NCBI RefSeq assembly: GCF_000277125.1
Contig: NC_016946.1
Span: 3,720,001 to 3,784,000, forward strand
Length of the DNA: 64,000 nucleotides
Direction: 5' to 3'
Source of the DNA: Mycobacterium intracellulare ATCC 13950
GTDB lineage: Bacteria; Actinomycetota; Actinomycetes; Mycobacteriales; Mycobacteriaceae
Shown: positions 27,457 to 44,569 of the stretch, piece by piece
Position numbering within the stretch: position 1 is the stretch's first letter
Layout: each line of letters begins with the position of its first letter
Position numbers and translations under genes: made by a program
Notes under the pieces: generated by a model
Told to the model about the DNA's origin: nothing
The model's database searches: none
Seen by the model: the letters and a program-made list of their open reading frames with translations, nothing else

Positions 27457-28659
27457 TTAGCGTTCGGCGCGCTGGTAGGCGGTGACGACGGCGGCGCCGC
27501 CCAGTCCGATGTTGTGTTGCAGTGCGGCGCTGACGTTGTCGACCTGACGCGCCTCGGCCGTCCCGCGCAGCTGCCAGGTCAGTTCCGCGCACTGCGCCAG
27601 CCCGGTCGCGCCCAAGGGATGCCCCTTGGAGATCAGGCCACCGGAGGGGTTGACCACCCAGCGGCCGCCGTAGGTGGTGTCGTTGTTGTCGATCAGCTTG
27701 GGCGCCTCACCCGGCCCACACAGGCCCAGCGCCTCGTAGAGCAGCAGCTCGTTGGCCGAGAAGCAGTCGTGCAGTTCGATCACCTGGAAGTCCTGCGGAC
27801 CCAGCCCGGACTGGTCGTAGACCTGTTGTGCGGCTTGCACATTCATGTCGTAGCCGATGAGGTTCTTGGCGCTCCCGTCGAACGTCGAGGCGAAGTCGGT
27901 GGTCATGGCCTGACCGACGATCTCGACGGCCTGGCCCGCCAGCCCGTGGCTGTCGACGAAGCTCTCCGAGGCCAGGATGGCCGCGCCCGAACCGTCGGAG
28001 GTCGGCGAGCACTGCAGCTTGGTCAGCGGGTCGGAGATCATCCGCGCCGCCAGGATGTCCTCGAGCGTGTAGGACTCCTGGAACTGCGCGAACGGGTTGT
28101 TCACCGAGTGCTTGTGATTCTTATAGCCGATCTTGGCGAAATGCTCTGCGGTGGAGCCGTATTGCTTCATGTGCTCGCGGCCGGCGGCGCCGAACATCCA
28201 CGGCGCGACGGGCATCGCGAACTCGTCGATCGCGGCCATCGCCTTGACGTGCTTGCCCATCGGCGATTCGCGGTCCTGAGCTCCGCCGCCCAGCGAACCG
28301 GGCTGCATCTTCTCGAAACCCAGCGCGATCGCGCAGTCGACGATGCCGCCGCGGATCGCCTGCGCGGCCAGGAAGAGCGCGGTGGAGCCGGTGGAGCAGT
28401 TGTTGTTGACGTTGACCACCGGGATACCCGTCATGCCGAGCTCGTAGAGCGCGCGCTGCCCGGACGTCGAATCCCCGGCGACGTAGCCGACGTAGCCCTG
28501 CTGCACCTCGTGGTAGGCGATGCCTGCGTCGGCCAGCGCGTTGGTCCCCGACTCGCGCGCCATGTCGGGGTAGTCCCAGCCCTCGCGGCGACCCGGCTTC
28601 TCGAATTTCGTCATGCCGACGCCGATGACGTAAACCTTGTTGGACATCTTGTTGGACAT
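27457..28659 (-). CDS. ltp1: Thiolase-like lipid-transfer protein Ltp1
   Basis: This SCP-x/thiolase-family protein of 400 residues has the nucleophile motif [16 protein letters not shown], the [12 protein letters not shown] segment and the C-terminal [14 protein letters not shown]. It would cleave or condense acyl-CoAs, perhaps in sterol side-chain or branched-chain lipid metabolism. The N-terminus MSNKMSNK is a doubled start: a 12-bp direct repeat gives two in-frame ATGs at 28659 and 28647. It is cotranscribed with fadE21. Confidence 0.88.
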
Positions 28660-28758
28660 CGTTGTCCCTTCCCGTGGGCCGCCTGGATACCCCAGTCTGC
28701 AACGTAGCCCAACCAACCGCTCGGCCGGGACCCGTTAGCGCGTCCTAGAGCGTCGCCG

Positions 28759-28778
28759 GGCGGGATCGATGGCCCGCC
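28759..28778 (-). terminator. Hairpin downstream of truB
   Basis: GGCGGG at 28759-28764 pairs with CCCGCC at 28773-28778 across an 8-bp loop, just after the truB stop on the minus strand. It lacks a U-run. It probably separates the truB operon from ltp1. M. tuberculosis carries insertion-element genes at this junction; none is present here. Confidence 0.4.
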
Positions 28779-28784
28779 TCCTCC

Positions 28785-29690
28785 TCAGTCCGTTCCGGAC
28801 TGCATCGTCGCCGGGCGGACCACCACCACCGACTTGGTCCGCGCCCCCTCGTCGCGCAACAGCGCAACCACCCGGCCGTCGGGGTCACAGGCGGCGTAGA
28901 CGCCGTCGATCCCGGCCGCCGGCAGGGACCGGCCGTTGGCGGCGGCGTCGGCCTCCCCGGCGGACAACTCGCGGCGCGGGAAGATCAGCAGGCAGGCCTC
29001 GTCGAGGCTGTAGCTCAGCCGCGGCCGCTCGGCGAGCTCGTCGAGCGAATACGCCTGGTCCAGCCCGAAGCGGCCGGCCCGGGTGCGGCGCAACGCCGTC
29101 AGGTGCCCGCCCACTCCCAGCGCGGCACCCAGATCGCGGGCCAGCGCACGGATGTAGGTTCCCGACGAGCAATCGACCTCGACGTCGACGTCGAGCACGT
29201 CCAGGCCGTGCGGTCCGGGGCGAATGTCGCGCACGTCGAACCGGTCGATGCGCACCGGGCGGGCCTCGAGCTCGACGGCGTGGCCCTCGCGGGCCAGGCG
29301 GTAGGCGCGCTTGCCGCCCACCTTGATGGCGCTGACGGTCGAGGGCACCTGCGCGATGTCACCCCGCAGCCCCTCGACGGCGGTCTCGATCGCCTCGGCG
29401 GTCAGGTGCCCGGCCGGGACGCTGTGCACCGGCTCGCCCTCGGCGTCGTCGGTCGACGTGCTCTGGCCCAGGCGGATGGTGGCCGCGTACGACTTCGAAG
29501 AAGCCGACAGCAGGCCGAGGATCTTGGTGGCGCGCTCGACGCCGATCACCAGCACCCCCGTGGCCATCGGGTCCAGGGTCCCCGCGTGCCCCACCCGCCG
29601 GGTGGAGAAGATCCGGCGGCAGCGGCCCACCACGTCGTGGCTGGTCATCGCCGGCGGCTTGTCGACGACGACGATGCCCGGACCGCTCAT
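28785..29690 (-). CDS. truB: tRNA pseudouridine-55 synthase TruB
   Basis: TruB makes the universal pseudouridine in the tRNA T-loop. The 301-residue protein has [11 protein letters not shown] and the catalytic [14 protein letters not shown] with Asp40, then the long SYAATIRLG and [14 protein letters not shown] segments. The start is coupled to pptT by an ATGA overlap at 29687-29690, so three genes (pptH, pptT, truB) form one unit. Confidence 0.95.
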
Positions 29691-30370: not shown

Positions 30371-31344
30371 CGTGATTGCCGCTGCCGCAACCGTTCCCGG
30401 AACTGCGTGGCCTGCTGTCGCATCTCGGGGGTGATCTCGAAGTGGCCGCCGAAGTCGTTGAGGTCACCGGGCGCGTACTGGGGATCCGGCAGCACCTGGC
30501 GCAGCCAGCTGGGCGGCTTGCGGCGCCGCCACTCCCGCGGATAGCCCACCGACACCTCCTCGAAGCGCACGTCGTCATACCAGGTGGTGCGCGGGATGTG
30601 CAGGTGACCGTAGACCGAGCAGACGGCGTTGTAGCGGGTGTGCCAGTCGGCGGTCTTGGTGGTTCCGCACCACAGCGAGAACTCCGGGTAGAACAGCGCG
30701 TCGCAGGGATCGCGGACCAACGGGAAGTGGTTCACCAGAACGGTCGGCGTCATCCAGTCCAGCTCTTCGAGGCGGGCACGGGTGATCTCCAGACGCTCGC
30801 GGCACCACGCCTCGCGGGTGGGATACGGCTCCGGGGAGAGCAGGAACTCGTCGGTGGCCACCACGTTGCGGTCCCGCGCGATGGTCAGCCCCTCGGCTTT
30901 GCTCGTGGCCCCCTCGGGCAAGAAGCTGTAGTCGTAGAGCAGGAACATCGGCACGATCGTGGCCGGACCGCCGCGCTCGGTCCAGACCGGGAACGGATGC
31001 TCCGGCGTGATCACACCCATCTCGTCGCACATGTTGACCAGGTAGTCGTAGCGCGCCTTGCCGAAGACCTGCACGGGGTCGCGGGTGGTGGTCCACAGCT
31101 CGTGGTTGCCGGGCACCCAGATCACCTTGGCGAACCGCCGTCGTAGCAGGTCAAGGGCCCAGCGAATCTCGTCGGTGCGCTCGGCGACGTCGCCGGCGAC
31201 GATCAGCCAGTCGTCCGGCGACGACGGATGCAGCGATTCGGTGACCGGCTTGTTGCCGAGGTGACCGGTGTGCAGGTCGGACACCGCCCACAGCGTCGGT
31301 TGCCCACCGTTGGTCGAGTCCTGCCCCGATCTATGCCCAGCCAC
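30367..31344 (-). CDS. pptH: Metallophosphoesterase, PptH-type phosphopantetheinyl hydrolase
   Basis: The 325-residue protein has all calcineurin-type motifs: SDLHTGH, AGDVAE, PGNHELW, NHFP and YGHLH. The orthologue Rv2795c has been described as PptH, which removes phosphopantetheine from carrier proteins and so opposes PptT; here the assignment rests on position and family. The stop overlaps the pptT start (ATGA). The upstream 147 bp holds a perfect palindrome that may regulate this operon or the divergent one. Confidence 0.88.
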
Positions 31345-42104: not shown

Positions 42105-43151
42105 CTAGCGGTCGTGGGCCATTCCGTGGGTGGCGCCGTGTTCGGGCTCGTTCTCCGGATGCCCGCCGGGCGAGTCCCCGCGGATGTCGATGCGCCAGCC
42201 GGTGAGCCGGGCGGCCAGCCGCGCGTTCTGGCCCTCCTTGCCGATGGCCAGTGACAACTGGAAGTCGGGGACGACCACCCGGGCGGCGCGGGCGGACGGG
42301 TCGATGATCGACACCGAGACCACCTTGGCGGGTGACAGCGCGTTGGCGACGAAGCGGGCCGGGTCCTCGTCGTAGTCGATGATGTCGATCTTCTCGCCGG
42401 AGAGCTCGCTCATCACGTTGCGGACCCGCTGACCCATCGGGCCGATGCAGGCGCCCTTGGCGTTCAGGCCGGGCAGGTTCGACTTCACCGCGATCTTGGA
42501 GCGATGGCCGGCCTCGCGCGCCACGGCCACGATTTCGACCGACTCGTCGGCGATCTCGGGCACCTCCAGGGAGAACAGCTTGCGAACCAGGTTGGGGTGG
42601 GTGCGCGACAGCGTGATCAGCGGCTCGCGGGCCCCGCGGGTCACCCCGATCACGTAACACCGCACGCGGTTGCCGTGTTCGTAGCTTTCGCCGGGGACCT
42701 GCTCGGCCGCCGGGATCACGCCCTCGGACGCCTTCGTCTCGGTGCCCATCCGCACCACCACCAGGCCGCGCGCGTTGGCCCGGCTGTCACGCTGGATCAC
42801 GCCAGCGACGATCTCGCCCTCACGCGTGGAGAACTCACCGTAGGTGCGCTCGTTCTCGGCATCGCGAAATCGCTGCAGCATCACCTGGCGTGCGGTGGTG
42901 GCGGCGATGCGCCCGAAGCCCTCGGGGGTGTCGTCCCATTCGCTGATGACGTTGTCGTCTTCGTCGGTCTCCCGGGCGATCACCCGGACGACGCCGGTCT
43001 TGCGGTCGATCTCGATCCGCGCGTCGTTCTGATGGCCCTCGGTGTGCCGGTAGGCGGTGAGCAGCGCGGACTTGATGGTCTCGAGCAGCTCGTTGACCGA
43101 GATGCCCCGATCCACCTCGATCGCATGCAGTGCGGCCATGTCGATATTCAT
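42105..43151 (-). CDS. nusA: Transcription termination/antitermination factor NusA
   Basis: NusA binds RNA polymerase and nascent RNA and controls pausing, termination and rRNA antitermination. The 348-residue protein has the N-terminal polymerase-binding domain, an S1 domain near 110-190, and two KH domains to about 330. There are no C-terminal acidic repeats, as expected for actinobacteria. ATG 43151 is coupled by an ATGA overlap to the last MIRU mini-ORF, and its Shine-Dalgarno AAGGAG lies inside the last repeat unit. Confidence 0.95.
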
Positions 43152-43204
43152 CTGCGCCGCTCCTTCTCATCGCTACGCTCTGCATCGTCGCCGGCGCGGT
43201 TCAT
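43148..43204 (-). CDS. MIRU mini-ORF 3, coupled to nusA
   Basis: An 18-codon frame starts at the TGATG junction at 43202-43206 and ends in a TGA overlapping the nusA ATG. It encodes the repeat peptide ending ERRR. It carries AAGGAG eight bases before the nusA start. Whether the peptide has a role is unknown; passing ribosomes to nusA is the likely function. Confidence 0.35.
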
Positions 43205-43257
43205 CAGCACCGCTCCTTCTCATCGCTACGCTCTGCATCGTCGCCGGCGCGGTTCAT
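43204..43257 (-). CDS. MIRU mini-ORF 2
   Basis: This 17-residue frame ([17 protein letters not shown]) starts at the TGATG that ends mini-ORF 1 and stops at the TGATG that starts mini-ORF 3. AAGGAG lies eight bases before the next start. It is identical to mini-ORF 1. Confidence 0.35.
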   Translation of the reverse strand: MNRAGDDAERSDEKERC

Positions 43258-43310
43258 CAGCACCGCTCCTTCTCATCGCTACGCTCTGCATCGTCGCCGG
43301 CGCGGTTCAT
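43257..43310 (-). CDS. MIRU mini-ORF 1, coupled to rimP
   Basis: This 17-residue frame has the same sequence as mini-ORF 2. Its ATG shares one base with the rimP TGA stop (TGATG at 43308-43312), so a ribosome finishing rimP can restart here. Confidence 0.35.
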   Translation of the reverse strand: MNRAGDDAERSDEKERC

Positions 43311-43834
43311 CAGCACCGCTCCTCCCCAGCCCCACGCTTCGCCAGTGCCAGTTCGGCGTCGGCAGGGGGCGAAAACTCCACCTGGACAACAGCTTTGACG
43401 ACATCACCGAGCGAGATTTCGCGGATCGCCCAGTCTCGGCCGGTGCGAACCACCAGCGCGACGGCGTCCTCGTTCGTCTCGCCGATGCGGCCGGTCAGCG
43501 TCGATCCGTCGGAGAGGGTGACGTCGACCTTGCGGCCGCGGGCGCGGCGGAAGTGCTTCGCGCTGGTCAGGGGGCGGTCAACGCCGCGCGAGGAGACCTC
43601 GAGCACGTAGTGGTCGCCGATGGTGTCCAGATCGTCGAGCAGCGCCGACGCCGAGCGTGACAGCGTGGCGGCCGTGTCCAGGTCGAGGCCGTCGTCGCCG
43701 TCGGCGATCACCGTGATGCGTGGGGGCCGGGTGCGTGCGTCGATGACCACGTCTTCGATCTCGTATCCCGCGCGCGCAAACTCTGCATCGAGTAGCTCGA
43801 TCACCTGCGTCTGCGACGGTAGCCCGGTGGTCAC
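43310..43834 (-). CDS. rimP: Ribosome maturation factor RimP
   Basis: RimP acts in 30S subunit assembly. The 174-residue protein has the two-domain RimP layout ([49 protein letters not shown], then an SH3-like domain). GTG 43834 follows a GAGGAG ribosome-binding site. The last residues (GEERC) and the stop already lie in the MIRU repeat, so the repeat has defined the C-terminus. It is first in the nusA-infB operon. Confidence 0.92.
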
Positions 43835-44041
43835 GGCGAGCTCCTCATCTTGAGTTGTCCGGTCATCTGGCGGATGTCGCCGCCGCGATGGCTTCGCGTC
43901 CGGCTTCCGGTGTCCCGGCGGAGAACGTGCTGGCTGTCCTCTGCGAGAACCAGCTATCCACGATACGCCAGGAATCGCGGATGGCGGCGCGATCGCGTGC
44001 TGGCTTCGTGCCCGCCGACGCACCGGTGGCAGGATGTGCTT

Positions 44042-44569
44042 GTGCCTAGCGCAGTTCCGTTCGTCAACCGGCGAGACGTCCTCTCCGGCGGCGTCGCTTT
44101 GGCCGCGCTCGGTGTGGTGTCCGCGTGCGGAAAGTCCGCGCCCAAGCCCCCGCCCGTCGAACAACTGCTGGGCCCGTTGGACCAGGCGCGCCACGACAGC
44201 GCGCTGGCGAGTGCCGCCGCCTCGGCCGTCGGGAACCCCCCGCAGGTCGCCGCCGCGCTGACGGTGGTGGCGAGCCAGCGCGCCGCGCACGCCCGCGCGC
44301 TGTCCACCGAGATCGCGCGGGCCGCCGGCAAGCTCGCCGCGCCGTCGTCGAGCGAAACGCCCAGCCCGAGTCAGGCCGAGCCGGCCGGTCCCCCGCCTCC
44401 CCCGCCGCCGGTGGCCGACGTGATCAACGCGCTGCACGCCTCGGCCGACAGCGCCGCTCGCCTGGTGGGCACCGAATCCGGCTACCGGGCCGGGCTGCTC
44501 GCCTCGATCGCCGCGTCCTGCACGGCGTCCTACACCGTGGCGCTGGTGCCCGGGGGACCGTCGATATGA
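44042..44569 (+). CDS. Tat-type lipoprotein (Rv2843 type)
   Basis: This 175-residue product has a twin-arginine signal ([16 protein letters not shown]) ending in a lipobox-like VSAC, so it is probably an exported lipoprotein anchored at the new N-terminal Cys (residue 29). The rest is Ala-rich and helical with a Pro-rich linker near 120. It overlaps the next gene by ATGA at 44566-44569; both resemble helical-bundle proteins and may form a pair. The function is unknown. Confidence 0.7.

Follow-up and report, generated by a model that had tools for sequence, protein, structure and literature searches.

The 64,000-nucleotide stretch of Mycobacterium intracellulare ATCC 13950 DNA that we analysed (the window) carries on its reverse strand rimP (43310..43834; 174 aa, read from the sequence with a GTG start at 43834) and nusA (42105..43151; 348 aa, starting at 43151), joined by three tandem 53-bp units of the MIRU repeat. 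Each unit holds a mini-ORF on the same strand. That of unit 1 (43257..43310; 54 nt, 17 aa) overlaps the rimP stop by one base (-1), that of unit 2 (43204..43257; 54 nt, the same 17 residues) overlaps unit 1 by -1, and that of unit 3 (43148..43204; 57 nt, 18 aa) overlaps unit 2 by -1 and nusA by -4. As a first-pass annotation of this DNA had reported, the A that closes the rimP TGA (43312-43310) also opens the first ATG (43310), giving TGATG. The same TGATG forms the joints between units 1 and 2 and between units 2 and 3, while unit 3 meets nusA at an ATGA that contains the nusA start. The annotation had also described three identical units whose 17-18-residue frames are all chained in this way. 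The three 53-bp units and frames of 17, 17, and 18 residues hold, but only units 1 and 2 are identical; unit 3 carries two changed bases near its 3' end (TGCTG to CGCAG), so that unit 3 joins nusA through a -4 ATGA overlap and not TGATG. AAGGAG does lie eight bases before each following start, on the coding strand at 43266-43271, at 43213-43218, and, ahead of the nusA ATG, at 43160-43165; GAGGAG is read eight bases upstream of the first mini-ORF ATG (43310). The 53-base period was also detected by a plain repeat search of the window, and 53 is 2 mod 3, which is what chains with -1 or -4 overlaps require. An array of three 53-bp units is known at this junction from one assembly.

The C-terminal residues of RimP, EERC, resemble the 3' end of a MIRU. 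A MIRU profile gave a weak match at 43308-43364 (10.5 bits, E 0.034), the sole support from the model for a MIRU-derived RimP tail. The array may accordingly be read as three units preceded by the end of a fourth one, now part of RimP.

The identification of the units as MIRUs, already made in the first-pass annotation, was borne out by both profile and DNA searches, in which the units matched a repeat family interspersed through this genome. With a profile trained on 25 units, window unit 3 among them, the three units were recovered from the window at E 4.2e-18 to 6e-17, and they scored 57.8 to 61.5 bits among the 93 own-genome matches at E up to 1. The DNA search returned 37 matches to the unit in the genome (5,402,402 bases, single contig). 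The junction also shows the traits of MIRUs: sense orientation, a gene (nusA) directly downstream, and ends that overlap stop and start codons (NTGA or TGATG). A further, weak MIRU-like match (14.5 bits) lies elsewhere in the window, at 31168-31203.

We then examined 39 MIRU loci of this genome. By a codon-usage score, a co-directional gene lay just downstream at 35 of them and an antisense gene at two, with two left unassigned. Strict relays, in which a MIRU frame is chained into the next gene, were found at 19 of the 39, among them two doubtful cases (L126 and a partial copy in L017 at 1624096) and two whose frame belongs to the upstream gene as its tail (L009, L015). The other 20 comprised four near relays, two in-frame fusions, seven frames that run on, three that end early, and four without a usable start. 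One of those scored as running on, L003, nevertheless relays into a 1503-nt open frame; apart from it and the strict relays, 19 of the 39 loci remain. At L244, L246, and L126, MIRUs are in frame into the downstream gene and could be N-terminal extensions. We rejected a general rule of 2 mod 3 periods for MIRU arrays, given a period of 58 bases at L012, one of 48 at L244, and spacings of 51 and 54 in arrays of G007. With the E cutoff set at 1e-8, the profile matched 6 of 13 genomes, and none of the four genomes outside the genus. The two ends of the repeat were compared at the 16 usable loci, after 23 of the 39 had been set aside for an end that departed from the pattern. Both bases after NTGA agreed at 7 of 16 loci (2.07 expected, p 0.0009). 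Taken singly, agreement was seen at 12 of 16 for the first base (p 0.0007), 8 of 16 for the second (p 0.13), and 11 of 16 for the base before TGA (p 0.45). This pattern hints at a duplication of the target upon MIRU insertion, with the second base alone not standing out.

MIRUs are said to have been first described by Supply et al. in 1997, in the senX3-regX3 operon, and a 53-bp form is known. According to the accessible text of PMC12548453, which cites Supply 1997, they insert at start codons in such a way that gene and MIRU ORF become coupled at a -4 spacing. The units described here are like those of the senX3-regX3 type in that they are short sense repeats with an open frame, overlapping stop and start codons, and a coupled next gene (PMC12548453, same excerpts). 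They differ in lying between rimP and nusA as three 53-bp units, at a junction that in relatives is empty, holds one or two units, ends RimP in a MIRU-like tail, or is read through by RimP. Mycobacterial small ORFs coupled by RTGA, with TGA overlapping the next start, are reported in the available part of PMC4633059, including one example that keeps the layout and not the peptide; those ORFs lie at leaderless transcript starts, whereas the repeats here lie inside an operon, and that part of the paper makes no mention of MIRUs. A link between MIRUs and nusA was likewise absent from the searched text of PMC7022546 and PMC11133741, and we found no prior report joining intracellulare VNTRs with nusA, or MIRUs with DTGA, in a literature search that left most subscription journals uncovered. 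MIRU-mediated coupling is already described, and the rimP-nusA array is a new and well-conserved example of this kind of layout.

To place the array among its relatives, we assembled 80 named nusA loci (the best 80 of 312) and 70 from further genomes. Thirty of these 70 were among the matches listed in a search of 297 genomes of the genus (the window's own genome being one of the 297); of the 40 added to them, 37 were chosen for a match extending upstream of nusA, which the other three lacked. The set is therefore enriched for MIRUs, and the class counts that follow are no measure of frequency. Together with the window there were 151 loci, of which L105, L109, L189, and L207 could not be parsed, and merging of duplicates gave 115 distinct junctions. 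No MIRU was present in 71, where the rimP TGA overlaps the nusA ATG directly (ATGA). An intact relay was found in 27: 25 with one unit, one with two (L064), and the window with three. Another 15, defined by their tail pattern among the overlapping junctions, have no separate mini-ORF and a RimP with a MIRU-like ending such as EERR or KERR. One relay is broken, its stop lying 12 nt before nusA (L072), and one junction, from M. lepromatosis, has a decayed rimP (L106). At L033 one unit is absorbed into RimP and one serves as a relay. Longer MIRUs of 68 to 137 bases lie upstream of nusA at L041, L044, L047, L050, L079, L088, L162, and L164; their GC-rich inserts look hairpin-like by eye, and the relay phase is kept. 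This one operon junction thus offers a natural series, from no unit through one to three relay units to RimP tail, in-frame fusion, and one broken case. With it, the published view that MIRUs maintain coupling becomes directly testable.

The first-pass annotation had described the repeats as turning the junction into a chain. They do not, however, give rise to the coupled layout, since the 71 MIRU-free junctions already overlap by ATGA, and a comparison of L032 (empty) with L031 (one unit) places the MIRU at the very stop/start overlap seen in the site without it. The related proposal, that the relay drives nusA, keeps its force in part: the relay anatomy, the MIRU identity, and a putative coupling from rimP to nusA fit the comparative data. 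We consider it likely that the tandem array preserves an older translational coupling from rimP to nusA through reinitiation on the mini-ORFs, with unit number and peptide being minor. From the sequences we infer both the reinitiation at the array and the following order of events. A MIRU would have entered the ATGA formed by the rimP stop and the nusA start, supplying a short open frame along with a Shine-Dalgarno sequence. On leaving rimP, ribosomes would then reinitiate on successive mini-ORFs and finish at the nusA start, and because relayed ribosomes would end there, the older coupling would be kept. What is constrained would be the arrival of translation at the nusA start, the number of units and their peptide carrying little weight. 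In the available portion of PMC10666635, termination-reinitiation in six E. coli/Haloferax gene pairs needed an overlap or a very short gap, and a gap of about 20 nt all but abolished it. Of the 115 junctions, 113 join nusA by a -4 or -1 overlap, with or without a MIRU, L072 and L106 being the exceptions.

A point against the relay is that nusA could start without coupling, through its own Shine-Dalgarno sequence. The AAGGAG of the last unit pairs with the anti-Shine-Dalgarno at -9.3 kcal/mol; the corresponding values are -11.6 at a typical empty junction (L160) and -9.3 at L032, via pairing further upstream. On this basis the array might be a neutral tandem repeat from whose last unit nusA starts, the open frames being a leftover of the family consensus. 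In keeping with this, M. intracellulare isolates carry 0 to 7 copies at seven other loci (Table 2 of PMC2861668, a source available in part), and MIRU states change frequently on a nusA tree. We regard this account as unlikely, given the near-universal overlap into nusA and the behaviour of the units themselves. The units at L187, L196, L199, and L202 still relay despite 11 to 13 base differences from the consensus and, in two of the four, a 3-base deletion as well. Phase is also kept when length changes: 8 of the 9 distinct unit lengths other than 53 are 2 mod 3, the ninth (54) belonging to the broken junction.

To set an expectation, each junction's own number of substitutions and indels was placed randomly on the consensus unit. 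Intact frames were found in 25 of 26 single-unit junctions (the 25 intact ones plus the broken L072, with two- and three-unit junctions outside the test) against 16.2 expected. The excess has a p of 8e-7 if rows are taken as independent, which overstates it, since rows share ancestry and the indel lengths and GC-rich inserts were chosen by us. Across 15 units of 53 bases, variable columns were spread evenly over the codon positions (10, 8, and 9), and selection on the mini-ORF peptide was accordingly rejected. Together, the kept phase, the 25 of 26 intact frames, and the even codon-position variation indicate that the constraint seems to be on frame rather than peptide. Other loci of the genome point the same way as to the peptide not mattering, in that the relay uses another frame of the repeat at L008, L018, and L243, and a shifted joint at L004.

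It had also been suggested that copy number could tune NusA output relative to RimP; on this view each joint would lose or add ribosomes. Such an effect would follow from the anatomy if the joints are not fully efficient, and unit number does vary (three in the window, two at L064, one relay plus one in RimP at L033). However, 25 of the 28 mini-ORF junctions have one intact unit, 71 of 115 have none, and the array of the relative G046 has fused with RimP. Although possible, a copy-number effect on NusA thus has no support, and we hold it to be improbable as an explanation of the array. A composite reading, in which an old, selected translation adaptor would keep flow into nusA, switch between relay (53 bp) and RimP tail (54 bp) by one base per unit, and shift the RimP:NusA ratio through copy number, appears doubtful. 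MIRUs have been assigned regulatory roles elsewhere, and an independent nusA promoter inside the repeats had been named as an alternative in the first-pass annotation. Consensus scans lent it no support: TANNNT was absent on the nusA strand in 43101-43420, a sigma-70-like site was absent in 43050-44100, and neither promoter nor terminator was found at the junction. We give this alternative very little credence. Unusual RNA structure was also considered and rejected (z-score -0.71).

The neighbour of the window on a quick nusA tree (support 82) is G046, where 2.9 copies of a 54-bp MIRU unit lie within the RimP reading frame (L142 1657-1811). The C-terminal residues of this RimP repeat the MIRU peptide, and its stop again overlaps the nusA start. 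Here a repeat has added new codons at the end of the gene for a conserved protein of ribosome assembly. Close neighbours on the tree differ in having no unit or one, and the starred branches require the one-unit label to change at least 13 times. Overall, 22 changes were counted between any MIRU or RimP-tail remnant and an empty site, and 19 between units and none with remnants left out, on a tree that cannot separate gain from loss. These many changes prompted us to consider repeated independent insertion, which was set aside on the basis of a shared base. In counts limited to fixed-pattern units, with long and diverged units uncounted, T follows GAGCG in 3 of 3 of the window's own junction units, 8 of 8 of the named set, and 15 of 16 of the G set (the sets overlap), whereas away from the junction it does so in 3 of 30 units of this genome and 1 of 20 of other genomes. 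The data are better explained by a single old lineage with repeated losses, or by exchange between species, than by repeated insertion. Because the diagnostic base is common to junction units and rare elsewhere, the sequences suggest one old insertion, recurrent loss, and, in the window's own lineage, local amplification; instead of an old insertion with loss, there may have been exchange between species.

The MIRU-VNTR loci of M. intracellulare described in the accessible part of PMC2861668 consist of tandem units of 53 to 57 bp, like the rimP-nusA array. The MIN 19 and MIN 33 primers given there match L002 and L005 exactly, with four units each, equal to the published ATCC 13950 values. Across the window and 60 own-genome loci, none of the seven published primer pairs had an exact match at the rimP-nusA array, and the available text is therefore silent on variation of the array among isolates. 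The MIN 20 primers fall at 28617-29019 in the window, around one MIRU-like unit (28775-28816), against five given there for ATCC 13950, a mismatch that may reflect a differing strain or collapsed repeats. In the MIN 33 array (L005 1503-1717), two of the four units carry an in-frame TAA; the relay is broken inside the array, and the last unit still meets the gene.
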